The position numbers and the translations under genes are program-made. The notes below the pieces were generated by a model that saw only the letters and a list, made by a program, of their open reading frames with translations, did no database searches and was not told the origin of the DNA. Shown piece after piece: positions 5,781-56,054 of a DNA stretch of 64,000 nucleotides. Source of the stretch: a virus; the IMG/VR virus record IMGVR_UViG_3300032132_000439, positions 1-64,000 of that record; one strand, given 5' to 3'. The stretch's first letter is position 1; every line of letters starts with the position of its first letter.

Positions 5781-6860
5781 TTACCCCCTAACGAGAATTA
5801 CATTTCCGAGGCTTGGCATAATGCCGGTTGCAAAAGTAATATCGCCCCCGGGAATTGTGACCTCATGTGAGGTTTCGCCGGTCGCGTTTGCGATTGCTTG
5901 CCAAATCCATGAAATGCGGAGTGAGAAAGGTTGATCCGGCAAGCTTGGTTGTGGAGCCTGTTTGAACAGCTCAATTAGAGCCGCCTCAACGTTAGCGCGA
6001 ACCTCAGCCGTGTCCGGTGTCAAATTCTTGATTGTGATATCGATGTTGTCCAGATTTGGAGCAATCGCAACGGCTGTGGCCGTGGCTGGCTTGTTCAAAT
6101 CAAACACCGCTTGCACCGCGTCCAAATCAGCTTGTTGAGGGATGCCATCTAAATATGCGTCATCCATCATGACCCAAACAGCAACAGTGCCTTCACGGAA
6201 TGCGTTACCCTTAGCCCATGCGCGGGTTACCCCGGCAACACTAAGCGCCCACATCTCATAATCGCTCTCACTGCCCCCGTGAGGCGGGTTACGCTTACGG
6301 AAAAGCAACCGTTGCCGGTAATCCTCAATTCCCTCAATGTCAGAGCCCCGGCCAATGCCTTTGGGGTCTACAACAGTTTCGGTAATTGCTGCGATTGCCG
6401 GTGACATAACCAACGGCGTGTCAGCCAGTGCGTTGCCGCTCGGCCCTGTCGCTTGGCCTGTGACTGCAACGTCAATGTAACCAACGGCTGGCACTAACGC
6501 TGTCGCGTCTGTCGCATACGTTGCGCCATCATCTCTCGTCAAGATCGTGCCAGCCGGGATGCTAGTGCCCAATGTGCCGGTAAATCTAACGGCTCCCTCC
6601 GGGTAACTAGCTTGTTTTCGCGGCATACCCAACTCATCGCCGTGCCGCGTTAAATAATCGATTGTCGCCTTGCTCACAAAGGCCTGATCAAGAGCCGTCT
6701 TGATACGGCGATCAAATAAGTATGCCCATTGAGCCAGAACCTTAGCCAGCACGCCCCAAACATTTGGCCATAACCAAGCATCGGAGCCGGGTGTTTCAGC
6801 GCGGAATGAAGCGCGAAAACGCGATCCCCATTCTTTCAGTGTTTCGACTTTGAATGCCAT
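5781..6860 (-). CDS. Baseplate J-like protein (Mu gp47 family)
   Basis: About 359 residues from the ATG at 6860, which overlaps the stop of the upstream gp46-like gene. It has the baseplate-J layout: a helical N-terminus, a PAGTILTRDDG-like strand region near residue 103, an EDYRQRLLFRKRNPPHGGSE block near residue 180, and a C-terminal IPGGDITF region. In Mu this protein is a wedge component of the contractile-tail baseplate. The gene order gp45-gp46-gp47-gp48 is retained. Confidence 0.85.
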   Translation of the reverse strand: MAFKVETLKEWGSRFRASFRAETPGSDAWLWPNVWGVLAKVLAQWAYLFDRRIKTALDQAFVSKATIDYLTRHGDELGMPRKQASYPEGAVRFTGTLGTSIPAGTILTRDDGATYATDATALVPAVGYIDVAVTGQATGPSGNALADTPLVMSPAIAAITETVVDPKGIGRGSDIEGIEDYRQRLLFRKRNPPHGGSESDYEMWALSVAGVTRAWAKGNAFREGTVAVWVMMDDAYLDGIPQQADLDAVQAVFDLNKPATATAVAIAPNLDNIDITIKNLTPDTAEVRANVEAALIELFKQAPQPSLPDQPFSLRISWIWQAIANATGETSHEVTIPGGDITFATGIMPSLGNVILVRG

Positions 6861-13755: not shown

Positions 13756-15240
13756 TTAGCTGTTGAAGTTGCCGAGCTGTTGATGAGTGATCATCTGAGC
13801 TGCGAAGACGCGGAATTGGTTCACCATGTCAGGCGGTAGGACCGCATCAATCCGGTCTGGATCGGTAACGCTACGCTCCATAGTGAGCAACGATTCAAAC
13901 AGTGCGTAATTCTCGCAAATGCTGAGATCGCAAAGTTTTGCATAAGCATGCAAGACCGTGGCGCGAACCTCATCAACTGTAGCAACGTTGTCCCGGTTTA
14001 GTGGGTCAGTTTCAGCAAGTGCAACCTGAGAATAAGCCCCGGTAACTTCCGCTTTCAAGAAACGTGCAACGCCCATGCTTTGGAACATTGTGTTCACATT
14101 CAACCAACTTGGATCGGCAAGCCCCCAATCATTCAATTGGTAAGTTGTGTTCATGCGATCAATGATCACGTTGCCAGCTTTATCAACCCGGTAACCGCAA
14201 AGGCCGTCAAAATACATTGATTGACGCTCGGTGAGATCCCAACGGTCAGCGATCAACTTTGGAGCTTTGATGCCCTTCAAAGTTGTTGCGTGCATCGGAA
14301 CCGAAAGGTTCGTGCCAATGCCGTTGAAGTGTGCTGCAGTAGCACCGGCAAGAGCGCCTACCCAATCAAAGATTGGTGAGCCTGAATTGTAGACCGGCAT
14401 AATTGATGCGTGCGGGTCGTTACGGGTATTACCGAAAGCGCTCAACACCGCATAGGTGCCGTTTTTCGCTGTGATAACGTGGCCGTAAAGCTCTTTAGCG
14501 TAAGACCAGCGACCGCTTGTGCCGTCCATAAAGTCTTGCGTTGCATCAAGGTTTGTCGCGTCATTGAACGGCATGCCGATCACGTCAAACTCTTCATCGC
14601 CCAAGTTCGCAAGCAAACCTGAAACGTCAGCCGTGCCAGCACCACCAGTAAAGGCAACCACTGTGAGCAATGTTGCGCTTGTCACGCCTTCATCACCAAC
14701 GCGATCAAGTTCCAACACCATGTCGTCACTGATAACACCCGTGAAATCAGATGTTAGCGTAACAACACCAGCCGCATTAGCTGCAGTTACCGGCGTGTAA
14801 ACATTGGCGTTGATTTCTGCAACGATGTTTGCGGCAATGTCTGTGTCTGTGTCAGTTGTTGTCACTGCAACTGAATAGCGTTCACCATTCAGATAGAAGT
14901 AAACCGTACCAGCCGCCGTCAATGGCGCGCCCGCAACTGTGATTGTAGCTGTTGAAGCTGCGCCCGCACCTTCGGCAACAGATGCAACCCAGATTTCTTG
15001 CAACGGCGCGTTGTCGCGTGCTGCTCGGTACATTGCTGCAAGAACGGAATTTGCACCGGCAAGCTGATCAATGTTGTCGTTTACGAGTGTCGCCGTGTCG
15101 TTCGCTAGTGTGCCGGTTGCACTTTTGTGACCGACGAGCAAACAACGATTAGATGATTGAAAAACCGCTTGTGAGGGGTTGATTTGGAACGATGCCAAAG
15201 GAACCCGCAAGTTTTGTGGAATGTCTGCAACTGCAACCAT
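13756..15240 (-). CDS. Contractile tail sheath protein (Mu gpL-like)
   Basis: A 494-residue sheath protein: N-terminal LRVPLASFQINPSQA, a Thr/Ala/Val-rich insertion domain (residues ~90-210) with immunoglobulin-like character, and the conserved C-terminal part including ICENYALFESLLTMERSVTDPDR near residue 445. Its presence makes this a myovirus-type tail. The Thr/Ala-rich insertion is longer than the Mu core and may be a surface decoration. Confidence 0.9.
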   Translation of the reverse strand: MVAVADIPQNLRVPLASFQINPSQAVFQSSNRCLLVGHKSATGTLANDTATLVNDNIDQLAGANSVLAAMYRAARDNAPLQEIWVASVAEGAGAASTATITVAGAPLTAAGTVYFYLNGERYSVAVTTTDTDTDIAANIVAEINANVYTPVTAANAAGVVTLTSDFTGVISDDMVLELDRVGDEGVTSATLLTVVAFTGGAGTADVSGLLANLGDEEFDVIGMPFNDATNLDATQDFMDGTSGRWSYAKELYGHVITAKNGTYAVLSAFGNTRNDPHASIMPVYNSGSPIFDWVGALAGATAAHFNGIGTNLSVPMHATTLKGIKAPKLIADRWDLTERQSMYFDGLCGYRVDKAGNVIIDRMNTTYQLNDWGLADPSWLNVNTMFQSMGVARFLKAEVTGAYSQVALAETDPLNRDNVATVDEVRATVLHAYAKLCDLSICENYALFESLLTMERSVTDPDRIDAVLPPDMVNQFRVFAAQMITHQQLGNFNS

Positions 15241-17156: not shown

Positions 17157-18188
17157 TTACTTAGCCTTCACAAGAAACTCAGGACGTGAAACCATAGGCA
17201 ACACGTTCATTTGAGCTTCCATATCAATGCCTTTGCCAAAGCGCATAGGCTCTTGCTTAGCATAGCGCTCTTGCGCTTTTGTGTTGACCGTTTCCATATA
17301 ATCAGCCGGTGCAAAATTCTCAGTGAACACTTGCTTAGTGCCCAATGGAATGATGCGAGCCTCACCGTCGGCAAGGTAATCATATGTGGTTGTTGTGTCT
17401 GTGAGCGGGTTGTAATAATCAACCGTACCATCATACTCAACAAACGTTAGGCCGTAATGCGTGAAGTTATCGCGCATTGAATCACGGTTAGGGTTTTTGC
17501 CCTGAGCGTTGTTGAAGAAGCGATATGCTTCGCGCGTTTCAGCGTCCTGCATAACCTTGTCCATGAAGCCAACGGAACCCAGAACAACAACACCGGTAAC
17601 CGTTTCGCCTTTTTTGATCTTGCGGTAATAACGCTTGATCTCGGCTGCAGTCTTTTCGATGTTCGGTGAGCCTGAGAAATCGAAATCAAAGACTTCTTCG
17701 GTTACGCCAAATTCAGTGAACAGATCAAACATTGTTGAACCGTCAGCGTCTTGGATAAGACCGTGAACCGCACCGTTACGCAACCATTCGCGCGTTACGT
17801 CCAGCTTATCGGCCATCGTATCAAGGCGCTCATTTACGATCTCTTCAACAACTTCAAGCTGATCGTCAGAACCGAACTTGCGTTTGTTTTGGATCGCGTC
17901 AGCCAAAAGACCATCTTCAATTGGGAAGTGTGGAATTTCAAAGCTGCGAATGTGACGTTTACCAGTGCGGTTTTTCGCACCCGGCGCGCCACGAACGGCT
18001 GACGGAACAAGGTTGATTACGCCGTTTTTGTATTCGATTGAAAAGTTTGTGCCGTACAAAAACTCAGACTTGAACAGGCCCATGCTGTTCCAGATTGAAT
18101 CTTTGTTCGGTACGATGTTGATCGCCGTAGAAAGCGAACGAACCCCAAAAGCGGGATTATCAAAAATTGCGAGTTGATCTTGGTTCAT
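17157..18188 (-). CDS. Major capsid protein (lambda gpE family)
   Basis: A 343-residue protein of the 'major capsid protein E' family: TAINIVPNKDSIWNSMGLFKSE at residues ~18-39 and a VNLVPSAVRGAPG-like block soon after, a DGLLADAIQNKR block near 93 and a C-terminal MRFGKGIDMEAQMNVLPMVSRPEFLVKAK. It assembles the procapsid shell. It follows the decoration gene and the protease/scaffold gene in the lambda order. Confidence 0.9.
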   Translation of the reverse strand: MNQDQLAIFDNPAFGVRSLSTAINIVPNKDSIWNSMGLFKSEFLYGTNFSIEYKNGVINLVPSAVRGAPGAKNRTGKRHIRSFEIPHFPIEDGLLADAIQNKRKFGSDDQLEVVEEIVNERLDTMADKLDVTREWLRNGAVHGLIQDADGSTMFDLFTEFGVTEEVFDFDFSGSPNIEKTAAEIKRYYRKIKKGETVTGVVVLGSVGFMDKVMQDAETREAYRFFNNAQGKNPNRDSMRDNFTHYGLTFVEYDGTVDYYNPLTDTTTTYDYLADGEARIIPLGTKQVFTENFAPADYMETVNTKAQERYAKQEPMRFGKGIDMEAQMNVLPMVSRPEFLVKAK

Positions 18189-20789: not shown

Positions 20790-22403
20790 TTACACTTCAC
20801 CGGCTGGTTTGCCGGGTTTAGCTGGCTTTTCTGGTTCATCTTCAAGCTTCAAACTCTTGATCACACCCTTTTCGACGGCCTTTTGTTCAAGCCGCTCCTC
20901 CCAATCGTTGCCATCTTGAGCCGCGATTGATTCAAGGGTTTCAACACCCATGTCCAAACCAAGCTCTTGAGCTTTACGTTCTTTCATCGGGTCAATTTGT
21001 GGTTTGCCGGACATAATGAATGCGCAACGTGCAAGAGCTTCCCAGTTGCCATAGAAATCTCCAACGCCCGGGGGCAAGTCAATTTCACCGATCAAGAAAG
21101 CCTCTTCAAGCCAAGCTGCAAACAATGGCTGCAATACTTGCGAGTGGACTGTTGAACGCGCAACCATGTAACCTTTCCAAACATCTGCGAGCGCCGTGCG
21201 GGCTGCAGCATAAGGCAATGAGCTGTAGTTTTTGGATAGGCTGGCAAAATCGATGCCGGTTGCCGCTGAGAATTGACGCAAGAAAGCGGCTTCAAACGCT
21301 GGAAAGTTTGCGTTCGATGTACTGCCCATTTTGATGTCGAGTTCTTCATTGGGCAATAAGTGGGGGATGCGCGCACCTTGCATCGTGATCCCGGCGCTGC
21401 TGTGATATCCCTTCACTTGCTGCATATGATCAATGCCAAGGGCTGTGATCGCGTTGCCGCCTAACTTGTTCTTAAGCGCATCAAGATCGCTCCCGACAAC
21501 CTCCATCGCCTTCTCATAAGGCAAGTTGGTTTTGATAACCGCTGCATATGATGCTTGCGTGACGGCACGCTGTAGCTCGGTTTTGTTGTAATTCTTTAGC
21601 ATCTTCATGCTACCGATTGCGCTTGCGAACTTGCTAACGCCCCGGCTCATTTCTGCATAAGGTTGATCAAATGCGTGCAATACGATTGGTCGGCCCATTC
21701 GGGAAGACGTGCGCGCGCTCACATATCGCTTTGCGTGAACCAAGCCGTCAGTTTCGTTCGGGTGTTTCTTGCGAATGTAATAGTGCGTTGGTGCGCCCAT
21801 TGCATTGCGGCGAATACCGTGCCGCACATTGCGATCACTAGAATATTTGTCAGGCGTTTCGAGGCGATCAATAGAAATATGCTGCAAACACGTTCCAAAT
21901 TTCAAGCCGCGCTTATATGCGGTTCGGTCAAATTGAACCAAGGCCAGCGCTTCACCATCAACAAAAATGCCCGCGTCCATAGTGCGCATCAATGCAGCAA
22001 GATCACCCCGGCGTTTTGCATCTACGTTGTGACGGAACCCATTTGCAAACAGGTCAAACTTGCGTTCCACTTGTCGCGCCCAATCCCGTGATTGTTCCGG
22101 TGAGATCCCGAGCAACTTATAATCAGGCTTCGCAGATAGTTTGATACGCGAACCAATTACGTTGTTTGTGTGCGCGTCCCGGGCGCTAACGGCAAAAGGG
22201 TCATTGCGCGTAAGTGAACGAGATCGCGAACGCAACAGCTCACCGGATTGATCAAATTCATTGTCGGCGCTGTTGTTGCTGGTGTACCAGTTACCACCCA
22301 CTTCACCGCCCAGAGCTGCCCCGTCATAAGGCGTGCCGTAACCTAAGCTTGCTGTTGCCCCGGATAGAAAATCTGTGGCCTTGTTGATCATTTTAGTGAA
22401 CAT
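20790..22403 (-). CDS. Portal protein (lambda gpB family)
   Basis: A 537-residue protein. It has the lambda B-type start (GELLRSRSRSLTRNDPFAVSARDAHTNNVIGS) and the core residues around ALVQFDRTAYKRGLKFGTCLQHISIDRLETP, and a Lys/Glu/Pro-rich C-terminal tail. The portal is the dodecameric ring through which DNA enters and leaves the head. Its start overlaps the preceding gene. Confidence 0.9.
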   Translation of the reverse strand: MFTKMINKATDFLSGATASLGYGTPYDGAALGGEVGGNWYTSNNSADNEFDQSGELLRSRSRSLTRNDPFAVSARDAHTNNVIGSRIKLSAKPDYKLLGISPEQSRDWARQVERKFDLFANGFRHNVDAKRRGDLAALMRTMDAGIFVDGEALALVQFDRTAYKRGLKFGTCLQHISIDRLETPDKYSSDRNVRHGIRRNAMGAPTHYYIRKKHPNETDGLVHAKRYVSARTSSRMGRPIVLHAFDQPYAEMSRGVSKFASAIGSMKMLKNYNKTELQRAVTQASYAAVIKTNLPYEKAMEVVGSDLDALKNKLGGNAITALGIDHMQQVKGYHSSAGITMQGARIPHLLPNEELDIKMGSTSNANFPAFEAAFLRQFSAATGIDFASLSKNYSSLPYAAARTALADVWKGYMVARSTVHSQVLQPLFAAWLEEAFLIGEIDLPPGVGDFYGNWEALARCAFIMSGKPQIDPMKERKAQELGLDMGVETLESIAAQDGNDWEERLEQKAVEKGVIKSLKLEDEPEKPAKPGKPAGEV

Positions 22404-23046
22404 CGAAACGAACTCCCCGCGCTGGTCCGCGTGACATTGTTAAATCAGGTAGGTCGGTGACTTCCTCACCGCATAGCCCGTAAAATCTTTCATAAACAAC
22501 CAAGAGCTTGTCGATACTTGAGGCGTGATACCAAACCTCTTGATCCTCATAGCGAACCCGCTGAGGTTTATCCGGGTTGAGTGTCAGCGTTTCAATTGCG
22601 TTGTAGATGTTGCGCAACAGTGTGGCACACCGGCTTTCCGCCGTTGTTTCCAACTGAGCAGATTGGGCTTTCTCGTGTTCCGCGACCGCAACACCATAAG
22701 TGATAACTTGCGTCGGGCTTGCAACACCACCAAAGCTAAGCGCCCCGGCTCCCGTTGCTAGACCACTGAAATTCACCGCGCCCAAAGCTACGTTGCTAAC
22801 ATCAACCGCCACGGTGCCGCTTATCAGAAGAACCGATTGCGGTGTGTTGGTGATGCTGAGATCAAAAGTGTCAGTTGCGAATGTTACCGTGCCGATAACT
22901 TCCTCACTGTGAAACGTTCTGTCAGGATACGTGATTGCAAACGTGCCGGAAAATACCCCGGCATCATCAAACGTCCCCACAACGGTAGCATTGCCCAAAG
23001 TTGGGTCATTTGCCGCCAATGTAATTGACCGCCTATTAGTTGTCAT
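22393..23046 (-). CDS. Head-tail joining region protein with a beta-rich N-terminal domain
   Basis: A 217-residue protein between terminase and portal genes, the position of gpW in lambda. The last ~90 residues are helical (ESRCATLLRNIYNAIETLTL... SSIDKLLVVYERFYGLCGEE) and have the size of gpW, while the first ~125 residues are Thr/Val/Gly-rich beta sequence (TVVGTFDDAGVFSGTFAITYP). A gpW-like joining function is inferred from position; I cannot prove homology. Confidence 0.45.
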   Translation of the reverse strand: MTTNRRSITLAANDPTLGNATVVGTFDDAGVFSGTFAITYPDRTFHSEEVIGTVTFATDTFDLSITNTPQSVLLISGTVAVDVSNVALGAVNFSGLATGAGALSFGGVASPTQVITYGVAVAEHEKAQSAQLETTAESRCATLLRNIYNAIETLTLNPDKPQRVRYEDQEVWYHASSIDKLLVVYERFYGLCGEEVTDLPDLTMSRGPARGVRFDVH

Positions 23047-24863
23047 GATGCGAACTCCGCGCCTAATGCGCTCAAACTAAGAGCGCCGTTGTTTGTTTCT
23101 TTGATCTTGTTCAAATTGTTCAAGCGCCCCTCAAAGTCAGGGTTAAGGCTATAACGAGCCGCCATCGCATAAACGAACGTATCAATTGCTTCATTCCGAG
23201 CGCCGGGCTTTTTGAACCATTCCCGCTTGGGAAAACCGTTCATGTAAATGATACGGGATTTTTCCACGGTCATTTGCTCAAAATATCCAGCCTCATATCG
23301 GGTAGGAAAGTGAATGCAACCCGGCCCCGCTTCCACGATTGGATAACGTTGATAAATGAGCGTTTTCGCATCATCCACGCCGACCAAGTAAAGTTGGGTT
23401 TTCCGAATGTTCTTGTTTGTTGATCGCTTCCAAATAGGCTTGTCAGGACCGGGAACGCCTTTGATCGCGTGCCACGGCCTAAACGATGCATTGTGTTTGG
23501 CTGCAAACTCATAAACTTGTTGCGTTGTGTTACCATCGCCCGAGTCAATTGCCGCCGCTTCAACGCCAAGCATTTCACCACTAGGGTGTTTGAATTTTCG
23601 CTTTAGCTGTTCTTCAAGAGCACTCCAAACTTGCTGACTGTAGGGGCTGCCCGAAAGTATCACGTTGTCTTGTGACCAACATTCCTCATCAAGACCCCAA
23701 GCCAAGAACTGCACTTCAAGGCGATCAGGTTGCACGTCAATGCCCGCTGTAACCAAGCATGCCCGTTTGTCTATTACATCGGCTGGATAGTCCTCAGCAC
23801 GGCTTTGCAAGCTTTCTGCGTTTGCAGTCTTGGCCAAGCTATCCTCAAAGGTTTCCGCCAACCGGGTATTTACGAACGTTTGCAACCGTGGCGGGTCATC
23901 TTTCACGTTCACAAAAAGCTCAGCCAGCTCACCGAGCTTTGCCCAAGGGCTGGCAATGGCGTTGAGGTGAAAACCGGCCTTGCCGTTATATGGTGCCGTT
24001 GGAGTCCAAATTCCCCGCTGCACTGATTCATGTCGATCAGCTTTTGACCAATCACAACCACATGAAACGCAGTTATATGAAGCCTCACGCGGACGGCCTT
24101 TAGGCCACTTCACCCGGGACCACTCCAAAATTTGCGGGTGATCGCAATGCATGCAAGGCACATAAAGAACCCGCTGATCAGTCTCCAAATATGCCGCCTC
24201 AATACGGCTCAAGCCCTTCACGGTTGGCGTGCTTGTAAGAATGATCTTACGGTTCTCACTAAAGGTGGCTGTACGCTGAGCAACAAGCTCAACAGGATCG
24301 CCCTCACGGGTGCTGACGTTATACCGATCGATCTCATCAAGTAGGGCAACCCGAATAGGTCGGGAAGCAAGGCTTGATTCTGAATTTGATGTTACTAGCG
24401 TTAGGTGACCGCCCGGGAACTTAATGTAACCGTCTTTAATGCCGCCACCCTTTTTGCCGGGATCGCCGCACCGCTCTTTCAGCTCGGACATATCCCTAAT
24501 CATCGGGTGTACGCGGTCATTCTGAAACGCTTGAGCCATAACCTCAGTTGGCTGTACAACCAGCATAGGGGCCGGGTCATGGTGTATATGATAGCCAACG
24601 GCATTAAGGATTAGCTCAGTTTTACCAAGCTGAGCGCCGAACAAGAGAACAACCTGTTCCGAGGCTCCATTGCTGATTTCACGCATAGGCTCGCGCAAGT
24701 ATGGCGTTCGGCTTGTGCGCCACCTTCCCGGCTCCGCACTCGCTTCCCCGCTAAGCATGCGGTGATCATCTGCCCAAGTATCAATCGTATGATCCGGGGG
24801 CAGTTGAAAACCATCAACCCAACCTTGGCGAACCTCACCAACACGGTTGGGGGCAAGGGTCAT
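23043..24863 (-). CDS. Terminase large subunit (GpA type)
   Basis: A 606-residue GpA-type terminase: a Walker A-like GAQLGKTELILN block near residue 75, an acidic LLDEIDRY box near residue 175, a Cys cluster with CMHCDHP and CVSCGCDW near 236-270, and the nuclease region starting with ITAGIDVQPDRLEVQ near residue 380. It couples ATP-driven packaging to DNA cutting. The start overlaps the terminase small gene by four bases. Confidence 0.92.
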   Translation of the reverse strand: MTLAPNRVGEVRQGWVDGFQLPPDHTIDTWADDHRMLSGEASAEPGRWRTSRTPYLREPMREISNGASEQVVLLFGAQLGKTELILNAVGYHIHHDPAPMLVVQPTEVMAQAFQNDRVHPMIRDMSELKERCGDPGKKGGGIKDGYIKFPGGHLTLVTSNSESSLASRPIRVALLDEIDRYNVSTREGDPVELVAQRTATFSENRKIILTSTPTVKGLSRIEAAYLETDQRVLYVPCMHCDHPQILEWSRVKWPKGRPREASYNCVSCGCDWSKADRHESVQRGIWTPTAPYNGKAGFHLNAIASPWAKLGELAELFVNVKDDPPRLQTFVNTRLAETFEDSLAKTANAESLQSRAEDYPADVIDKRACLVTAGIDVQPDRLEVQFLAWGLDEECWSQDNVILSGSPYSQQVWSALEEQLKRKFKHPSGEMLGVEAAAIDSGDGNTTQQVYEFAAKHNASFRPWHAIKGVPGPDKPIWKRSTNKNIRKTQLYLVGVDDAKTLIYQRYPIVEAGPGCIHFPTRYEAGYFEQMTVEKSRIIYMNGFPKREWFKKPGARNEAIDTFVYAMAARYSLNPDFEGRLNNLNKIKETNNGALSLSALGAEFAS

Positions 24864-25414
24864 ATGTCAGCAACCTCTTTTTGTAATTCTTCGATAGCCT
24901 CCCGAATTTCGGTTTTGAGGCCTTCTTTCCCCGCCTCAATCAGAAAGGGGGCTAATCTCGCGTTTAGGGTTTCCAGCTTCCGCCGCACCGCTGTGGCGAT
25001 CTCAAAGCTATGAGATTTCACATCTGCAGCGCTCACCAGCTCCCCGGCTTCCTCTTCAAAGCGTAGCTTGGCGCGTTTTGCTTCATAGGCGGCTTTTTGC
25101 GCCCGTGCTTGCAAATACACCCGGTTGCTTTGATCCGCTTCCTGAGCGGCGCTTATTGCAGCAGCATTGTCCGCGCTCCGCGTTTGCGGTGCTGGCGTTT
25201 GTCTGGGCTCCGGTGTCTCCGGCTCCGTTGTTGTGTTGTTTGCCCGGCGGCTGTGTTGGTCAAGTGATGCAATAAGGCGATCAACATCGGCGGTCAGGTA
25301 TAACCCATCGTCACCGCGTGAAATCCGTCCCTGAGCTTCAAGCGCTCGAATGCGCCGGTCACTAACACCAGCTCTCCGCGCCGCTGCAGTCTGGTTGAGG
25401 CGTTCAGCACTCAT
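24860..25414 (-). CDS. Terminase small subunit (Nu1-like)
   Basis: A 184-residue protein. N-terminal residues ~5-50 form a winged-helix-like DNA-binding region (LNQTAAARRAGVSDRRIRALEAQGRISR), followed by a Pro/Thr/Ala linker and a helical C-terminal interaction domain (RAKLRFEEEAGELVSAADVKSHSFEIA). This matches the Nu1 type, which recognises the packaging site. It is the first gene of the head operon on the minus strand. Confidence 0.75.
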   Translation of the reverse strand: MSAERLNQTAAARRAGVSDRRIRALEAQGRISRGDDGLYLTADVDRLIASLDQHSRRANNTTTEPETPEPRQTPAPQTRSADNAAAISAAQEADQSNRVYLQARAQKAAYEAKRAKLRFEEEAGELVSAADVKSHSFEIATAVRRKLETLNARLAPFLIEAGKEGLKTEIREAIEELQKEVADI

Positions 25415-25580
25415 AAAACACCTATTTATTCGATTTTGTCACATTACCATTCCGCGCTGTTTTGTCAAACAATTCCCGCAATTGGTAATTATTTTATCAA
25501 AAGTGCATCTTTTTTATTGCAGTATTGGTAAATCCGGTTCAGAGTGTGGTTACTGGCTAAGGAAATTGGAGAGCAAAACA
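25415..25580. promoter_or_regulatory. Divergent promoter region, terminase and amidoligase
   Basis: Minus strand: -35 TTGACA (25463-25468), 16-base spacer, -10 TAATGT (25441-25446), with the half-operator TTACCA at 25444-25449 over the -10. Plus strand: half-operators TGGTAA at 25483-25488 and 25526-25531, the latter inside GTATTGGTAAAT, a 12-mer also found at the early promoter near 51.85 kb. The plus-strand start is preceded by AAATTGGAGAG. No good -35 for the plus strand was seen. Confidence 0.5.
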
Positions 25581-26684
25581 ATGATCACAACTGACCGCAC
25601 ATATGGCGTTGAAATTGAAGGCGTTATGCCATCGGGTATCTCAAGAGCTGAGGTAACTTTCGCACTTAAACAAGCTGGCATGGACGTTGAATTGGAAAGT
25701 TACAACCACATTGTCCGCCCAAGCTGGAAAGTTACAACTGACGCAAGCGTTGGATACGGTAGCGGTTTCGAGTTGGTTAGCCCGATCCTAAAAGGCGCTG
25801 ACGGTTTGCGCCAATTGTTCACCGCCCTAACGGCCTTAACTGAGCTTGGCTGCTCTGTGAATAAGTCTTGCGGTATGCATGTACACGTTTACGCTGGTGA
25901 TTTCTCAGCTAAGGAAATCGGCAAAATTTCCAAGTGCTTTTTGATGTATGAAAACTTTTTTGACTACATTATGCCTTTGAGCCGCCGTGGTTCTTCAAAC
26001 CGATATGTTAAATCGAACCGCTTGCATTCAGGTGGCGGTTATAAGCCTTTCCATGCTAACGCCGGTATGGATCGCATAAGCGCTGCAAAAACAATCTATG
26101 AAGTTTATAACGCTGTTCAAAGTGATCGCTTCTACAAATTCAACTTGCAAAACCTTGTTGGCGGCCACCGCTTCAACACTATCGAATTTCGCCAGCACGT
26201 TGGCACGATGGACACACAAAGCGCCCTGAATTGGGTTGCTCTTTTGGTTTCGTTTGTCGAGAACGCTGCAAAATCAAAAATCCGTAAACGCGAAAGCTTC
26301 AAGGACGCTGACAAGCACTTGCGCGCTGGCCGTGAAATGGCTGACTTTTTCCGCATGTTTAAAACGCCTGAGGCGGTTCAATCTTACTATAAGGATCGCT
26401 ATGCATTTTTCCGCGATGAAGAAACGGCAGTCATCAAGGCTGAGAAAGATGCGATCATACGCCGTGAGGAAATCATCGGCAACATTACCGATCTAATCGA
26501 GCGCGCCACGGCAAAGCTTGAACACATGGCTACTTTCAAGCGCCGTCAGTGGAATAAAGAGGGCCGTTTGCGCCGCAATATCCGCATCCTGCAAAACCCA
26601 ACCGCTGAGACAAATTCAAAGCTTGAAGTGGCCGTGCGCCAACTTGAACTTGCACTTACACCGCGCACCCGCCGCGCCGCTTAA
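25581..26684 (+). CDS. Amidoligase family protein (Amidoligase_2)
   Basis: A 367-residue protein. It opens with TTDRTYGVEIEG, the typical start of COOH-NH2 amidoligases of the glutamine-synthetase/GCS superfamily, and has a HIVRPSWKVTTDASVG block near residue 44, a GFELVSPIL block near 65, a SCGMHVHVYA block near 95 and a NTIEFRQHVGTM block near 200. These Glu/His/Arg positions are the expected ATP/metal and substrate residues. The last 130 residues are charged and helical. The family forms amide bonds using ATP; the substrate here is unknown. The only coupled neighbour is the GGCT-like gene. Confidence 0.85.
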   Translation: MITTDRTYGVEIEGVMPSGISRAEVTFALKQAGMDVELESYNHIVRPSWKVTTDASVGYGSGFELVSPILKGADGLRQLFTALTALTELGCSVNKSCGMHVHVYAGDFSAKEIGKISKCFLMYENFFDYIMPLSRRGSSNRYVKSNRLHSGGGYKPFHANAGMDRISAAKTIYEVYNAVQSDRFYKFNLQNLVGGHRFNTIEFRQHVGTMDTQSALNWVALLVSFVENAAKSKIRKRESFKDADKHLRAGREMADFFRMFKTPEAVQSYYKDRYAFFRDEETAVIKAEKDAIIRREEIIGNITDLIERATAKLEHMATFKRRQWNKEGRLRRNIRILQNPTAETNSKLEVAVRQLELALTPRTRRAA

Positions 26685-26699
26685 TTGAAAGAGAACATC

Positions 26700-27173
26700 A
26701 TGACAAATTCAAAATATTATTTCGCTTACGGCTCTAACTTGAACGTTGAACAAATGAAATTCCGGTGCCCTAAAGCCAAGCTTATCAAAACCGCGCATTT
26801 GCCAGATTGGAGGCTTGTGTTTAGAGGCGTTGCTGACGTGGAGCCGTTTGAAGGGCTTTCCGTTCCCGGTGCCTTGTGGGCTGTGACCGAAGAATGTGAG
26901 AAGTCGCTAGATCAGTATGAGGGTTGCCGCCCTGACGGTAATGGTCTTTATCGCCGTGAGTTCATTGATGTTGTGACTGAGAGCCCGAACGGGGCTCCCA
27001 TAAAAGAAACTGCGCTTGTCTACATCATGAACCGTGACGGGTATGATGCGCCGGGGGAGATTTACGCCAGAAGCATTATTGATGGCTATAAGCACAACAA
27101 TCTTGACCCACAACCACTCTATCAAGCCATATCATACGCCTTTGACAACTCCCCAAGCCTAGCCGAGATTTAG
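26700..27173 (+). CDS. Gamma-glutamylcyclotransferase-like protein (AIG2/GGCT fold)
   Basis: A 157-residue protein starting 15 bases after the amidoligase stop. It has the GGCT signature YFAYGSNLN near residue 6 and a PGALWAVTEE-EKSLDQYEG block near residues 56-75 that would carry the catalytic Glu region. Members cleave gamma-glutamyl amide bonds and release pyroglutamate. Pairing with an amidoligase suggests a make-and-break pair for a gamma-glutamyl-type amide; this is inference. Its 3' end overlaps the opposing ParB-methyltransferase gene by 15 bases. Confidence 0.85.
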   Translation: MTNSKYYFAYGSNLNVEQMKFRCPKAKLIKTAHLPDWRLVFRGVADVEPFEGLSVPGALWAVTEECEKSLDQYEGCRPDGNGLYRREFIDVVTESPNGAPIKETALVYIMNRDGYDAPGEIYARSIIDGYKHNNLDPQPLYQAISYAFDNSPSLAEI

Positions 27174-28553
27174 AGCTTTCAAAACATGGGGAGATCGCGC
27201 CAATGGTCGTGATTTCCCTAACATCATTTCAAACTCATATTTAACGGCGCTGGTGACTTGATCAACCGGCAATTCTTCGGTTTTGATCCCCATGCATTGC
27301 CATGAGCTATCGCCGCCCCCGCCTTTCATTTCTTTGCAGGAATAGCCGTATTGATCGCATAGGTCGCGGACTTCATCGCGGGAATGGTATTTCTGGTAAA
27401 ACCACTCACCATTGCGGTATAGGGCCGTGAGGTTGTTTTCATCCAAGAACTCAACATAGCGCATGCTCGGTGAGCTTCGGTTGATTGTTTGCCGATCAAA
27501 TGATTTGCGATAATCAAGGCAACGCCCTGAGAAGAAAATGCGACCGCCCACTTTGCAAGCTGCATTGATGAACGTCAGCACCGCATCTTGAGCTTCCATG
27601 CAATCAACGCTGTTCATCACGCTATCAAGAACAACAGCGTCATAACCGCCGTTCTTTTCAATATCCGCGCACATGTGATCGATCATGGCATTGATCGCGC
27701 TTGCATCTAATGTTTTGGAGCCGCCTACTCGGCGGAACAATTCAACGTCATGCACGTTGAAGCCCTGCTCACGCAAAAACTTCGCATAATCGCCTTGCCC
27801 TGCGCCGAAATCCAGAACCCGGGCCTCACGGTTATTTAAAAGCCAGGGAATTACAAGCTTCTCATAAAGGTTGCTCTTGTTTTCCTTACCGCTATCGGTT
27901 TTGCGCTTGCGATACATTTGCGCGAAAGTTTGAATGTACGTGTTCCGCGGGAGATGCTCATAACTGAAAACACCGTATTCCCGGCTCAGAAATTGCACGT
28001 ATTCGTCCCGGCGCTCATCTGGCACAACAAACACCGTGAGGTCACAACCGAGCAATTTTGCGGCCAAAGCATATTGCGCGCAATGAATGATCTCGCCCGA
28101 CTGGGTAGCAACAACGCCACCCCATGAGCCAAATTTGACAATCAATTTGCAGATTTCTTGACGTACGTTTACGCCGGTTGCACGCAAATTGCCCTCAAGC
28201 GTATCGCCTTTTATGACGGTATACCCAAGCTCGGGAAAGCCGCCCTTGAGACTGCACGCCTCATCGCCACGGTCCAAATCGGTGCCGTTGTGAAGTTGGT
28301 TGAAACGAACTTCATCATATGTAGTGGTTTTGGCTGACAGGACATAAACGGGAGCCGTTGTTTCGCCCAATGCACGCAAAGCCCGTGTGCGCTGGTGACC
28401 GGCAACCAATAAGTCGCCGCGAACAATTAGCGGTTTAACAATCCCAAAACGCTTGATGCTTTCTTTCAGAACTTCAATGTCGTCATCATCAATCTTGCGC
28501 GGGTTGTAAGCCGCCCCACGCAAGCCGTCCAATGAATAAGCAGGATCAAGCAT
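27159..28553 (-). CDS. ParB-domain protein fused to a SAM methyltransferase
   Basis: About 464 residues from the ATG at 28553, which overlaps the stop of the upstream ParB gene. Residues ~1-95 form a ParB/Srx-like domain (NPRKIDDDDIEVLKESI, VAGHQRTRALRALG). Residues ~105-205 form a domain of unknown type with GGVVATQSGEI and ALAAKLLGCDLTVFVVP. Residues ~240-400 are a class I methyltransferase with motif I VLDFGAGQGDY near 246. No DPPY or PC motif of DNA methylases is seen. DNA is a plausible target because of the ParB domain, but this is inference. Confidence 0.7.
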   Translation of the reverse strand: MLDPAYSLDGLRGAAYNPRKIDDDDIEVLKESIKRFGIVKPLIVRGDLLVAGHQRTRALRALGETTAPVYVLSAKTTTYDEVRFNQLHNGTDLDRGDEACSLKGGFPELGYTVIKGDTLEGNLRATGVNVRQEICKLIVKFGSWGGVVATQSGEIIHCAQYALAAKLLGCDLTVFVVPDERRDEYVQFLSREYGVFSYEHLPRNTYIQTFAQMYRKRKTDSGKENKSNLYEKLVIPWLLNNREARVLDFGAGQGDYAKFLREQGFNVHDVELFRRVGGSKTLDASAINAMIDHMCADIEKNGGYDAVVLDSVMNSVDCMEAQDAVLTFINAACKVGGRIFFSGRCLDYRKSFDRQTINRSSPSMRYVEFLDENNLTALYRNGEWFYQKYHSRDEVRDLCDQYGYSCKEMKGGGGDSSWQCMGIKTEELPVDQVTSAVKYEFEMMLGKSRPLARSPHVLKALNLG

Positions 28554-29211
28554 TTTCACCCGCCCGAGCCAGCAACCAACGGACAAATCCGAAATATGCG
28601 CCGTGGCTTTCTGAATACATCGTCAGCGTGTCTTTGAGATCAGCCGCCTCTTGATCCGTCATTGGAACCTTGATGCCATCAAAGTTGAATGTCGGGCCGG
28701 TCACGCCGGTTGTTGATTCATCGCTGCTTTCGGATGAGATATCAACATGATCGCCACCGCTACCGTCATCAACGGCATTGTAAGTGGTGTTTTCACCGGT
28801 GCCACTGTCCATGAGGTTGTCGAGAATATCAGGATCGAACGCAGCAACTTCCAGATCGAAGCCCTGCTCTTCCAGAGCTTTCAACTCAGTTGTGAGCAAT
28901 CCATAATCCCATTGGGAATATTCGCCGGACTTGTTGTCCGTGATCCTGTACATCTGGGCTTGCTCATCGGACAAATCCGAGGCCACCTTAACGGGAACCT
29001 CAGTGTAACCGAGCTTTTGAGCGGCGCGCCACCGGGTGTGTCCTACGATAATTACGCCGGTCCCATCTACGACGATCGGTTGCTGAAAACCGAATTGTTC
29101 CAACGACATAGCGACCTTATCGACCGCCTCATCAGAGATGCTTCGTGGATTGTTGTCGTATGGCAATACATCCTGTATTGGCCAATCGGTAACATCAAAC
29201 GTCCGTTCCAT
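28546..29211 (-). CDS. ParB/Srx-domain protein
   Basis: A 221-residue protein with an N-terminal ParB-like domain (PYDNNPRSISDEAVDKVAMSL; VDGTGVIIVGHTRWRAAQKLG; residues ~15-80) and a second region from ~85-130 typical of phage ParB proteins that sit beside methylase genes. The C-terminal half is acidic and Ser/Asp-rich with a short terminal helical domain. A TTAGGAG-type ribosome-binding site precedes the ATG. It overlaps the ParB-methyltransferase gene, so the two should be co-translated. Confidence 0.8.
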   Translation of the reverse strand: MERTFDVTDWPIQDVLPYDNNPRSISDEAVDKVAMSLEQFGFQQPIVVDGTGVIIVGHTRWRAAQKLGYTEVPVKVASDLSDEQAQMYRITDNKSGEYSQWDYGLLTTELKALEEQGFDLEVAAFDPDILDNLMDSGTGENTTYNAVDDGSGGDHVDISSESSDESTTGVTGPTFNFDGIKVPMTDQEAADLKDTLTMYSESHGAYFGFVRWLLARAGENA

Positions 29212-42988: not shown

Positions 42989-43013
42989 AAAGGGCGCATC
43001 ATGCGCCCTTTTT
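42989..43013. terminator. Bidirectional terminator between the plus-strand unit and brnA
   Basis: AAAGGGCGCAT and ATGCGCCCTTTTT form a near-perfect hairpin with a T-tract on the plus strand; the minus strand also has an A-to-T reversal. The stop codon of brnA lies inside it. Efficient on the plus strand; probably weak on the minus strand. Confidence 0.75.
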
Positions 43014-43382
43014 CTTCACCAATGCCAGCAAGTCCGCATTCAATTGAGACTGCCAACCCCTGCCCGTTAATCGGTAGTGTTTAAGCACCTCACTATCCAA
43101 CCTTATTGAGATAGATTCTTTGCCCTTACCTGCAGGTAACTTAGGGCGACCACGCTTAGCCTTGGCAAACATCGCGTCTGACCATTCCGGGTTGTCAGCA
43201 TCCGCCGCAATACCGGCCTGAATTTCTTGTTCCGTGATCAGTTCTCTTGGAGGAGTATTCGCCGCTCGTAGCCCACTATATCTTACTTTTGCTTCGGCTC
43301 TAACTGCTTTAGCATCCTTTATAATAAACGAGCCGCTTCCTTGGCGGGTGTCATCATCCTTGCTCTTCGATGATTTTCTCAT
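42999..43382 (-). CDS. brnA: BrnA family antitoxin
   Basis: A 127-residue protein: a disordered, charged N-terminal region, an INTPPRELITEQEIQAGIAADADNPEWSDAMF-like central helix segment, a basic linker and a KESISIRLDSEVLKHYR region at the end that forms a ribbon-helix-helix DNA-binding domain. Such proteins neutralise BrnT and repress the operon. The start overlaps the brnT end by about 28 bases. The gene pair runs against the plus-strand genes on both sides. Confidence 0.85.
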   Translation of the reverse strand: MRKSSKSKDDDTRQGSGSFIIKDAKAVRAEAKVRYSGLRAANTPPRELITEQEIQAGIAADADNPEWSDAMFAKAKRGRPKLPAGKGKESISIRLDSEVLKHYRLTGRGWQSQLNADLLALVKKKGA

Positions 43383-43641
43383 ATTTTCGCACCTCCCTTT
43401 TGTTAGACTTTCGCAAGCTAATCACACGTATTGCATCTTCACGTATGGTGTAACAAATAGCATGTAACCGCTCGCCAATTTTCACATGGCATAACTGGCG
43501 CTCTTCACCGTCATGGTTTTGGGTAAGGCAAATCGCGCTATCCCAATCAATAAGCTTTGCGCTTTCAAACGCGATTCCGTGCTTATCAAGGTTCTTTCGC
43601 GCCTTGTTATCGTCCCATTCATATTCAAATTCATCACTCAT
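43354..43641 (-). CDS. brnT: BrnT family toxin
   Basis: A 95-residue protein from the ATG at 43641 (EFEYEWDDNKARKNLDKHGIAFESA at the N-terminus; ARVGERLHAICYTIREDAIRVISLRKSNKREVRKYE later). These match BrnT, a ribonuclease toxin of the RelE superfamily. It precedes brnA and shares an overlapping end, the standard order. A TTGACA-like box and the palindrome at 43649-43662 lie just upstream. Confidence 0.85.
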   Translation of the reverse strand: MSDEFEYEWDDNKARKNLDKHGIAFESAKLIDWDSAICLTQNHDGEERQLCHVKIGERLHAICYTIREDAIRVISLRKSNKREVRKYEKIIEEQG

Positions 43642-43648
43642 GTCAATA

Positions 43649-43662
43649 AATGTATATACATT
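43649..43662. promoter_or_regulatory. brnTA operator-promoter palindrome
   Basis: AATGTATATACATT is a perfect 14-bp palindrome immediately before brnT, the expected position of the BrnA/BrnT autoregulatory site. It shares TGTATA with the inverted repeat at 43708-43726. Confidence 0.6.
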
Positions 43663-43698
43663 AAAACAATAATGCAACCTCAAAATGGGTACGTTTTA

Positions 43699-50973: not shown

Positions 50974-51179
50974 TTTCTAACTCTCCAAAAATGTAAACAA
51001 ATCGTTACGTTTTTGCGTAATTGGTATTTTTTTGCTTGCAATAAACGCCTGAGCGTATAGAAGATTAGGCTGCAATAAAAAAACGACGCTTACCAAATCG
51101 GTAACATGCTGCAAGAATTATCAATATTGGTAATTTTTGCAAGCGACAAAATCATAAATAGTGGAGTAAAAATACTGTA
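50974..51179. promoter_or_regulatory. Repressor-early promoter operator region
   Basis: Minus strand: -35 TTGCAG (51109-51114), 16-base spacer, -10 TAAGCG (51087-51092). The operator TTACCA-AAT-CGGTAA (51090-51104, one mismatch) lies between them. Half-operators occur at 51127-51133 (TTGGTAA) and 51018-51027 (TAATTGGTAT). This is a divergent switch between the early operon and the repressor. The repressor's own promoter was not identified clearly. Confidence 0.6.
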
Positions 51180-51830
51180 ATGTTAGAACAAGCCAGTACA
51201 ATCAAGAGGTTACGGAAATTACGCGGCTTAACTCAGGGTGATTTAGCCCAGCTAATCGCAGAGAATACCGACCTCGAAACAACAACCGCCACGATTTCAC
51301 GCATTGAGCGCGGTGATCGCCAGTTGACCGCAAAATGGATCAAGGCATTTTCGCAAGCGCTTGAGGTTGATGAATACACAATCATAACGGGCAAGGCCGA
51401 CATACCGGAAAGCACCGGCGAAAGCTCAGGCATTCCCGTTGCCGGAAGATTGAGCGCTGAAACGTGGTCGAGTAGCAAAGCTAGCAAAAGCGCATTCAAA
51501 ACGGTTCCGGTTATCCCAACCGACGAATATAGAGACTATTCACATAGCGCTTTTGAGCTGGAAGAAAACAGCGGCGTTGAGGAGCTAACGAACGGGTGTG
51601 CTATTACAGTTCCCTATTACGATGCGCGGGTGAACCCAACACCCGGCGATCTGGTTGTTGTTCGCTTCACTCAAGGCGCGCAACCTGAGCGTATTTACCG
51701 CACTTGTGCCGGGGAATTAATTCGTGATCGCCTCACAAATACCGTTCAGCTTAGCGTGGCCGGGGTTTTGTACGAAGTGGAAAAAGCCGACCTATTGGGT
51801 AAAATTACTGCAATTTATAGACAAGTTTAA
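51180..51830 (+). CDS. CI-like repressor: XRE HTH plus S24-type C-terminal domain
   Basis: 216 residues. Residues ~5-65 form an XRE HTH (IKRLRKLRGLTQGDLAQLIAENTD... TISRIERGDRQLT). Residues ~85-210 have the LexA/CI fold: IPVAGRLSAE cleavage-region-like stretch, AFELEENSGVEEL-NG-AITVPYYDA where the catalytic Ser loop would be, and PGDLVVVRF. The Ser-Met and Lys of self-cleaving members are not clearly conserved (SG and an Arg-containing QPERIYR instead), so self-cleavage is doubtful. It faces the early operon across the operators, so it is the best candidate for the operator-binding repressor. Confidence 0.8.
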   Translation: MLEQASTIKRLRKLRGLTQGDLAQLIAENTDLETTTATISRIERGDRQLTAKWIKAFSQALEVDEYTIITGKADIPESTGESSGIPVAGRLSAETWSSSKASKSAFKTVPVIPTDEYRDYSHSAFELEENSGVEELTNGCAITVPYYDARVNPTPGDLVVVRFTQGAQPERIYRTCAGELIRDRLTNTVQLSVAGVLYEVEKADLLGKITAIYRQV

Positions 51831-52556: not shown

Positions 52557-53090
52557 ATGAACACAATCTTATCTTCCGAAATTTCCCACAAAATCATAGG
52601 TCACTATTTCGGTGCAAACCGGCAAGCGATGATTGATGAAGCGCATGTGCTTTCTCAAAAGGTCTATGAGGCAACTGTGCCCGAAGGCGTTCGCGATGCA
52701 ATGGGCATGGCCGCTGAGGGGATTTTTGAACCTTGTGACGAACTATCAATTCACATTGGCCGTGAAAAAGCTTTCAACCTACCTTTGAAAAATCCGGTTC
52801 CATCGTGCGCGGTTCTTGAGAACACGATTGTTATCTCAAGAGAAAGCAATGCGGTGCTATTTAAAGAGCTTGAAAAGGCCTTTAAAAAATTTGATGCCGC
52901 CGAAAAAACTGTCAGCGCCGCTGTTGACACTGTTCTGACTGCGATCACCCCATTTGCCACGGTTGAAGAGCTTGTTGCTCACTGGCCGGAATTGGCTGAA
53001 ATCATTGAAGTTCCCGAAACGAAATTTAGCGGCGGTGAAAAGACAAACATCACCAAAGCAAAAACAGCGCTTGAAGCATTGGCCGCGTAA
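52557..53090 (+). CDS. Phage early protein, unknown, 177 residues
   Basis: ATG 52557 with CAACTTGGAGAACTAAA upstream. Alpha-helical, with SREKAFNLPL-like middle and a Lys/Ala-rich C-terminal helix. A central ELEKAFKKFDAAEKTVSAAVDTVLTAI part has coiled-coil character. No family recognised. Confidence 0.55.
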   Translation: MNTILSSEISHKIIGHYFGANRQAMIDEAHVLSQKVYEATVPEGVRDAMGMAAEGIFEPCDELSIHIGREKAFNLPLKNPVPSCAVLENTIVISRESNAVLFKELEKAFKKFDAAEKTVSAAVDTVLTAITPFATVEELVAHWPELAEIIEVPETKFSGGEKTNITKAKTALEALAA

Positions 53091-53221: not shown

Positions 53222-53418
53222 CCGCTAAGCTGAAAATTACACGCACGCAAATTAATGCTGTGGCCGCTGTGGCCATGCAAAATGATATCGCCATCTGTGT
53301 TGAGCATGAAGGGCTCAAGCTGACCGTCTATCCTGACACAAAGGTCGGTGATAGGGTTGAAGACGCAAGCCAATCGAGCTTGGACAAATGGCGCAAAAAC
53401 AAAGGCAAAAAGCAATGA
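53218..53418 (+). CDS. Small phage protein, unknown, 66 residues
   Basis: Beta-rich N-terminal half (LKITRTQINAVAAVAMQND; ICVEHEGLKLTVYPDTK) and a basic C-terminal helix. Overlaps both neighbours by four bases, directly before the integrase. It may be an excisionase-like or regulatory partner; size and position are the only support. Confidence 0.5.
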   Translation: MTAKLKITRTQINAVAAVAMQNDIAICVEHEGLKLTVYPDTKVGDRVEDASQSSLDKWRKNKGKKQ

Positions 53419-54410
53419 CGAAAGTTAACCTTGAAGGCTTGCACATTGTTAAGGTGCGATCAAAGTCGGGTAAACGGGTTGAATATCATTACGCCTTTCG
53501 TGGCGGTCCTCGCCTCACCGAAAAGCCCGGGACCGCTGCTTACTTGAGAGAGTTCCAACGCTTCGCCAAGGCAAAGCCGGTTGAAGCACTGGGCTCCGTT
53601 AGCGCTCTTATTGAAGACTATCGCCGGAGCGCGAAATTCCTGAAACTGGCCACATCAACTAAGCGATCCTATACCACGGCCCTTGATCGCATTGGCGCTG
53701 AATTTGGGACCATGCCGATTGAAGCCCTTGAAGAAAGAGGCTCCCGAGCAGAGATTTTATTATGGCGCGACGAAATCGCCGCCGAAACACCGCGCACCGC
53801 TGACAACACCGTCACCGTGTTTGCCCGGGTGCTTGCAATCGCCGTGGATCGCGAAATGATTATGCGCCACCCATTGCAGAACATTGAAAAGGTCAGCAAA
53901 GCATCAAGGCGCGATGTTATCTGGTTGGACGATCAAATACAGACAATCATGGCGAAATCGCCTCAGACGATCCGTGAGGCGTTTCTATTGGCTTTGCATA
54001 GTGGACAACGCAAAGGCGATCTAATGGCCATGACGTGGGATCAATGGGACGGGGAAGCGCTAAAATTCAAACAGGGCAAGACCGGCGCGGTTGTCCACTT
54101 CAAACCGCACTCAGATTTGCGCAATATGTTGAACACCATGAAGCGGCCAAGCGTTCGCGTTCTGACCAATCAATCGGGTGTGCCTTGGAGCGGTGGGTTT
54201 GATGGCGTGTGGCGCAAGAACCTTCAAAAGCTGAATATCACCGGCCTAACATTTCACGACTTGCGGGGAACGTACATTACGACCGCATATCGCAACGGCA
54301 CCACAATTCCAAAGATCGCGGAAGTAAGCGGTCACAGTGAGCGTGATTGCCAGAGCATAATTCGCCAGCATTATCTGGCAACGGACGTGTTGAATGAAAC
54401 GCAAGTTTGA
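53415..54410 (+). CDS. int: Tyrosine-family integrase
   Basis: 331 residues. N-terminal arm/core-binding region (~1-170), then the catalytic domain: HSGQRKGDLMAM near residue 197 (Arg), FHDLRGTYITTAYRNG near 286 (HxxR), SGHSERDCQSIIRQHYLA near 310 with the terminal His and Tyr. It catalyses site-specific recombination between phage and host attachment sites. It ends ~270 bases before the tRNA fragment. Start ATG overlaps the previous stop. Confidence 0.92.
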   Translation: MTKVNLEGLHIVKVRSKSGKRVEYHYAFRGGPRLTEKPGTAAYLREFQRFAKAKPVEALGSVSALIEDYRRSAKFLKLATSTKRSYTTALDRIGAEFGTMPIEALEERGSRAEILLWRDEIAAETPRTADNTVTVFARVLAIAVDREMIMRHPLQNIEKVSKASRRDVIWLDDQIQTIMAKSPQTIREAFLLALHSGQRKGDLMAMTWDQWDGEALKFKQGKTGAVVHFKPHSDLRNMLNTMKRPSVRVLTNQSGVPWSGGFDGVWRKNLQKLNITGLTFHDLRGTYITTAYRNGTTIPKIAEVSGHSERDCQSIIRQHYLATDVLNETQV

Positions 54411-55043: not shown

Positions 55044-55277
55044 AAATTAACAAGAGAACAAAAATGGAACAAACTCGATTTGGATTCGGAGTTACTTTTC
55101 TAAAACCCAGCTCATTTCAGGAAGTTAACAATCGCACTGCTAGTTAGCAATTACTAGCGATCGCGGAGCCGATGTTTTAGGTTATACTTTCATTGGATCG
55201 GGTTTGTTTACCAACAGTTCCCCGATTAGTCAGCATTCCAGTGCTGCCTACTCCGTTACTAATATTTGAAGGCTACT
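55044..55277. other. Gene-free stretch
   Basis: AT-rich, about 230 bases. It contains AGAACAAAAATGGAACAAACTCG, a third occurrence of the AGAACAAAA word. No convincing promoter pair was found beyond general AT-richness. Confidence 0.3.
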
Positions 55278-56054
55278 ATGATCGATAGACGCAAATCGGA
55301 AATCCTATGGCACTACACATCGTTAGACACCCTTTATAAAATATGGGATTCAAAATCTCTATTGGCGTCAGACATTCGGGACCTAAACGATCGCAAAGAA
55401 TGGAAGGTTGCCTTCGAAGCGTTTCGTAGCTGGTCGCAGAAATCAAATAACCCCGCTGCACTGAAGTTGCTTGATGACAATCCGGAATTTGAAAACACAG
55501 CGGGCAACCAATCGAACAGGTCCATGGTAGTGTCTTTCTCTGCGAGGCGAGACAACCTTTCTATGTGGCGCGTCTACGGCAATATCCAAAATGGGGGGAA
55601 AGCAGAAGCCATCGGATTTGAGAAAAAGGACCTAATCTCAATTTGCAAGGCTCAAACAATTGGTGAACCCGGAAAGTGTGTCTATGAAATGGAAATCGCC
55701 CACGGGCTGCTTGAAGACCAACTTGGAAAACAGACTGAAAACTTCGAAACAGCAGCGTACTTTGCTGTTTGGCAATTAGCCCACTGGTTGAAAGATAAAG
55801 GCTTCAGCGATGAAGCAGAGTGGCGCATTCCAGTACCAGTTGAGTACGACGGACACCGTAAAAATGTGGGCATCATTGGCAACCGATTTAGGTATCCCAT
55901 AGACCTGCAAGGGGCTGAAATCCACGAGCTGGGCATTGCCGAAATTATGGGCGGACCCACCACCTCAAAGGAGCTATTGGCTGCGTTCGTAGAAAACGCC
56001 TACGGAAAACGCGACTTTCCAAAAACTGAGACATCTTCGATCCCGTTTGTGTAA
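55278..56054 (+). CDS. DUF2971 family protein
   Basis: 258 residues from the ATG at 55278 (GAAGG upstream). DUF2971 signature WHYTSLDTLYKIWDSKSLLASDIRDLNDRKEW near residues 11-42, MVVSFSARRDNLSMWRVYG near 80-100, EAEWRIPVPVEY near 175. The family has unknown function and often lies near variable or defence-like genes. It is adjacent to a phage integration site. Confidence 0.75.
   Translation: MIDRRKSEILWHYTSLDTLYKIWDSKSLLASDIRDLNDRKEWKVAFEAFRSWSQKSNNPAALKLLDDNPEFENTAGNQSNRSMVVSFSARRDNLSMWRVYGNIQNGGKAEAIGFEKKDLISICKAQTIGEPGKCVYEMEIAHGLLEDQLGKQTENFETAAYFAVWQLAHWLKDKGFSDEAEWRIPVPVEYDGHRKNVGIIGNRFRYPIDLQGAEIHELGIAEIMGGPTTSKELLAAFVENAYGKRDFPKTETSSIPFV

Follow-up and report, generated by a model that had tools for sequence, protein, structure and literature searches.

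Among described phage systems, the modules of phiEco32, LUZ24, phiRIO-1 and PSA-HP1 combine an amidoligase with a gamma-glutamyl cyclotransferase (GGCT), and have been assigned to putative peptidoglycan modification (PMC11945000, PMC5498523). The phage papers trace the peptidoglycan idea to Iyer 2009 and Hardies 2013, and for related modules the host surface has been conjectured in print to be the target (PMC11945000, PMC5498523, PMC10580990). Modules of the phiEco32/LUZ24 type also include a GATase, an ATP-grasp protein and a COOH-NH2 ligase, and are found among early genes; the locus analysed here, by contrast, consists of two genes only and adjoins packaging genes. It lies in the window, by which we mean the whole stretch of DNA analysed, positions 1-64,000 of IMG/VR record IMGVR_UViG_3300032132_000439.

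A preliminary description of this DNA stated that amidoligase and GGCT neighbours had been noted earlier in comparative genomics, and named DNA, the capsid and a cell-surface molecule as possible targets. Later phage papers that refer back to Iyer 2009 and Hardies 2013 describe fuller modules with both genes. The pairing has already been noticed in phages; what is new here is this reduced two-gene cassette, a shared motif, and a third gene elsewhere. Our preferred reading, to which we assign a probability of about 0.6, is that the pair is a lytic-phase cassette that places a gamma-glutamyl tag on a host-derived substrate and takes it off again.

Position of the gene pair in the prophage

The phage in the window is of a contractile-tail type with a GpA-type terminase. 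Profile searches locate its tail sheath (13756-15240), head protein (17157-18188) and portal (20790-22403) genes on the minus strand, as are those of TerL (23043-24863) and of the terminase small subunit TerS (24860-25414; PHROG 57, E 3e-24). An integrase gene occupies 53388-54410, and past ~55-58 kb the gene content takes on a bacterial look, with products that include a KefC-like antiporter and a flavodoxin-fold protein. Judged by this gene content the element is a prophage plus flanking host DNA; comparing its first 4 kb with 54.3-57.6 kb revealed no att repeat.

The amidoligase (25581-26684) and GGCT (26700-27173) genes, 15 bp apart, are on the plus strand within this otherwise minus-strand late region. 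TerS flanks them on one side; on the other stands a minus-strand gene (27159-28586; PHROG 5475, where no function is assigned) for a fusion of ParB_N, a middle region and a methyltransferase, with a ParB gene (28546-29211, minus) beside it. The preliminary description had placed a plus-strand pair between minus-strand terminase and ParB genes, and both this arrangement and its coordinates and strands proved correct on re-checking. PADLOC returned no defence or anti-defence match for the pair. The prophage also carries a BrnT toxin / BrnA antitoxin pair (42999-43683, minus; PF04365, PF14384), and a DUF2971 protein (55266-56054, plus), weakly similar to the candidate defence family PDC-S31, adjoins its integrase end.

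Predicted enzymes

The first gene starts at an ATG (25581) with a GGAG ribosome-binding site and encodes 367 amino acids, which match Amidoligase_2 (PF12224) over model positions 2-244 of 245 (97.7 bits against a cut-off of 22, E 1.3e-27) and PHROG 2443, 'amidoligase' (E 2.8e-30). Twelve residues invariant in an alignment of 58 phage amidoligases, G9, E11, E13, W49, D54, E64, P68, G98, H100, H102, E202 and R204, are all present in it; E11, E13, D54, E64, H100, H102, E202 and R204 make up its conserved acidic/His/Arg active-site set. The AlphaFold2 model (pLDDT 90.8) gave as best Foldseek matches in the PDB YbdK, gamma-glutamylmethylamide synthetase (GmaS) and glutamine synthetases, with E from 8e-6 to 1e-3, and also returned Dop of the pupylation system; TM-scores are low, about 0.34-0.41, so we claim only a fold class, from which the substrate class cannot be read. 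The initial assignment to Amidoligase_2, with ATP-dependent amide bond formation, is supported; we predict a carboxylate-amine ligase that uses ATP and has the glutamine-synthetase/GCS fold.

The second gene starts at ATG 26700 and encodes 157 amino acids matching AIG2/GGACT (PF06094; 47.6 bits against a cut-off of 22.8, E 3e-12) and PHROG 2520, 'gamma-glutamyl cyclotransferase' (E 6.8e-30). A YGSN loop (Y10 G11 S12 N13) and E74, invariant or nearly so among 40 GGCTs, are present in the window protein; in a phmmer comparison with human GGCT (8e-7), E74 aligns with E98, which we take to be the catalytic residue of the human enzyme. Human GGCT is also the best Foldseek match (3cry, E 2.8e-11, TM 0.73) to the AlphaFold2 model (pLDDT 95.8). 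Profile, residues and structure search alike uphold the first assignment, a GGCT-fold protein directly after the amidoligase; we predict a cyclotransferase resembling human GGCT, which would cleave gamma-glutamyl amides.

Human GGCT acts on small gamma-glutamyl compounds. Since the window GGCT is closest to it, and the fold neighbours of the ligase are small-molecule gamma-glutamyl ligases, the pair might run a metabolite cycle, gamma-glutamylating an amino acid, polyamine or other amine and freeing it later. Gamma-glutamyl protection and deprotection in butirosin synthesis and the gamma-glutamyl-putrescine pathway offer parallels to such a cycle. Against it, the window ORFs scanned included no biosynthetic partner gene nearby, and we consider a cycle of this kind somewhat unlikely.

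Conservation of the pairing

The viral and genome collections yielded no relatives when scanned with the single amidoligase protein; a nine-sequence amidoligase alignment was too divergent as query, and a three-sequence alignment recovered them. Another set of loci was seeded with GGCT: the 80 best-scoring viral loci, with 63 distinct GGCTs, 60 of them having enough upstream DNA. An amidoligase gene lies immediately upstream on the same strand in 52 of these 60, the exceptions being mostly one marine lineage in which GGCT follows a helicase-like gene. Conversely, GGCT is found within 2.5 kb in 39 of the 54 amidoligase-seeded loci with enough flank, and is downstream on the same strand in nearly every case (39/40 such GGCT genes). 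Both sets consist of the best-scoring loci, and these proportions hold among relatives rather than for all phages. The distance matrices of the two proteins correlate (Mantel r 0.61 for 72 dereplicated pairs; maximum of 2000 permutations, 0.12).

The pairing is therefore far above chance across phages, with gene order fixed and the genes co-inherited. The preliminary description had reckoned that an absence of conserved pairing in other phages would speak against its proposal; the neighbourhood survey found the pairing conserved. Annotated phages of Bacillus, Arthrobacter, Geobacillus, Vibrio, Terrisporobacter and Ca. Heliusvirales carry both genes. Some phages have either gene alone, which shows that each can occur without its partner.

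Several loci deserve mention on their own account. In the marine lineage (L026, L058, L073) a YGSN-type GGCT stands beside the helicase-like gene without an amidoligase. In L008 (6717-7613) an N-terminal amidotransferase-like region, with an MCLI start, is apparently fused to GGCT in one chain, and in L076 amidotransferase, amidoligase and GGCT genes are all three present. A neighbour in L005, a 'Q-rule protein', was ruled out as a GGCT by alignment.

The ParB-methyltransferase neighbour

A ParB-methyltransferase fusion is also found beside amidoligases in L086, L099, L100 and L103/L104. It is widespread in viral contigs, with a homologue about 51% identical in Escherichia phage vB_EcoM-613R2, and most viral loci that carry it have no amidoligase. 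This rules it out as an obligate partner and makes it a neighbour of the pair.

Its position next to the pair, together with a weak Nmad5 match at 52557-53090, could point to DNA hypermodification, in which a modified base of the phage DNA would receive an amino acid or polyamine from the ligase. However, the Nmad5 match is only about 50 aa long and scores under its curated threshold, the fusion mostly occurs without an amidoligase, and the ORFs scanned include neither a base-synthesis nor a DNA-kinase gene. DNA is the least likely target, and a very improbable one, because base-modification genes above curated cut-offs are absent from the window ORFs scanned.

A small third gene in related loci

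Of 79 loci seeded with the amidoligase, 49 have a gene for a protein of ~80 aa immediately behind that of the ligase (L143:8418-8675, L159:1507-1737, L166:7819-8049, L005:4731-4970 and about 45 more), and where all three genes are present the order is ligase, small protein, GGCT in 34 of 39. The small protein has no significant match in Pfam, PHROG, NCBIfam or PADLOC. One search of annotated phages returned just 10 records, of which seven are Porphyromonas phages and two are fecal contigs, all with an amidoligase; the tenth is a fecal contig in which the match is near the contig end. The window lacks it; a search of the window ruled out that it is fused to another protein or encoded elsewhere there.

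The small protein may be a regulator, a partner or a substrate, and offers a new handle on the target of the ligase. As the tightest neighbour of many phage amidoligases, it raises the possibility that the ligase modifies proteins, attaching glutamate or some other group to a protein of phage or host, those of the virion included, with the small companion as possible partner or substrate; that the glutamine-synthetase fold also takes in Dop of the pupylation system is in keeping with this. Yet the window has no copy of the companion, and the C-terminus of this protein varies, in contrast to that of Pup, which leaves a Pup-like modifier with a fixed tail unsupported. We judge protein modification improbable here. 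A broader version, which we also think unlikely to be right, makes amidoligases the core of a system with the ~80-aa protein as their substrate or obligate partner, and with GGCT to edit the product or undo it; the window locus would then be a reduced form whose target is a host molecule.

The promoter region

TerS and amidoligase genes diverge from an intergenic region (25415-25580) with three operator-like sites, one with a single mismatch to ATTGGTAAW (25443-25451) and two exact (25481-25489, 25524-25532). The phage part of the window has six exact copies, these two and four elsewhere at promoter-like positions; noncoding DNA holds 5 where shuffling predicts 0.17. Intergenic occurrences are at 25443, 25481, 25524, 35505, 39968, 51117-51134 and 51856. 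The one at 51117-51134 is a near-palindromic copy, ATTATCAATATTGGTAAT (near-palindrome ATTACCAATATTGGTAAT), in the divergent region of an HTH_3 repressor-like gene (51180-51830, plus), which the motif would link to the pair as candidate lysogeny repressor; the remaining exact copies precede other transcription units. Matches to the sigma-70 consensus in 25415-25580 were not above chance, and no clear sigma-70 promoter was recognized there.

Operators in the divergent promoter region had been claimed in the preliminary description, and the repeats shared with the repressor-like region lend this support. We regard the motif copies as candidate prophage-repressor sites, an assignment made post hoc with the region already in view. 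The motif common to the promoter region of the pair and that of the repressor suggests lytic-phase expression: if the copies are repressor operators, the pair would be silent in the lysogen and switched on by induction. Expression timed in this way would fit a lytic role better than constant exclusion of superinfecting phages by the lysogen.

Discussion

Computation establishes the folds, catalytic residues, gene order and co-inheritance of the pair; from these, and from the operator-like sites, we infer the gamma-glutamyl chemistry of the ligase, the lytic timing and the target. On the reading we prefer, the two genes would act as one lytic-phase enzyme cassette: the ligase would convert a carboxylate (glutamate, at its gamma-carboxyl, is the likeliest) to an acyl phosphate and join it to an amine, and GGCT would cleave gamma-glutamyl amides by intramolecular attack, yielding 5-oxoproline and the free amine. 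The net effect would be that, while the phage grows, an amide of gamma-glutamyl type is placed on a host-derived substrate and then removed or limited in its spread. As substrate, a precursor or peptide of the cell envelope or a small amine metabolite is likeliest. Our search of the literature found no report of a substrate or activity for the phage pair.

The envelope might, alternatively, be the target in the stricter sense proposed for modules of phiEco32, LUZ24 and phiRIO-1 type (PMC11945000, PMC5498523, PMC11253131, PMC10580990, PMC11318856), the pair altering peptide cross-links or precursors of peptidoglycan to block superinfection or prepare lysis. A CHAP-domain gene in the same prophage (520-1023), scoring just under the Pfam cut-off, is consistent with this. 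Against it, the GATase II of such modules is missing from the whole record, which has no match to PF13230 or PF13522 (so that a GATase is ruled out as a required partner at the window locus), and neither an ATP-grasp protein nor a COOH-NH2 ligase was found among the window ORFs scanned with Pfam, a part of the total. The operator-like sites speak against constant expression in the lysogen, and the literature search found no experiment on an effect on peptidoglycan. We entertain peptidoglycan modification as a tentative possibility, and keep the more general tag-and-untag cassette as our preferred reading.

The pair recurs, in fixed order, in phages of many bacterial groups. The window locus is a minimal two-gene version in a prophage, with a promoter that a candidate repressor may control, which in principle makes it easy to study by deletion and by induction.

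Among cellular enzymes, human GGCT (C7orf24) and YbdK/GmaS resemble the window proteins in fold and catalytic residue pattern, but are metabolic enzymes only about 11-28% identical to them. The pairs of Ca. Heliusvirales, the Bacillus 035JT001 group, Geobacillus GR1 and Terrisporobacter TPDSL_ph1 match that of the window in families, order and strand, and in Heliusvirales the pair likewise lies between a ParB gene and terminase; their amidoligases, however, are only about 20-33% identical to that of the window, whose pair, unlike theirs, runs opposite to the late genes around it and has its intergenic region in common with TerS. The closest cassettes are those of L086, L019 and L099, with amidoligases about 33-44% and GGCTs about 43-47% identical. 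L086 and L019 differ from the window in having a GNAT-like gene nearby, and L086 also in its terminase type and in a second GGCT-like gene (6112-6681), of YGTL type, in the same cassette as the YGSN-type one. As in the window, ParB-methyltransferase is near the cassette in L086 and L099, and in L086 and L019 the cassette adjoins terminase genes of the opposite strand.
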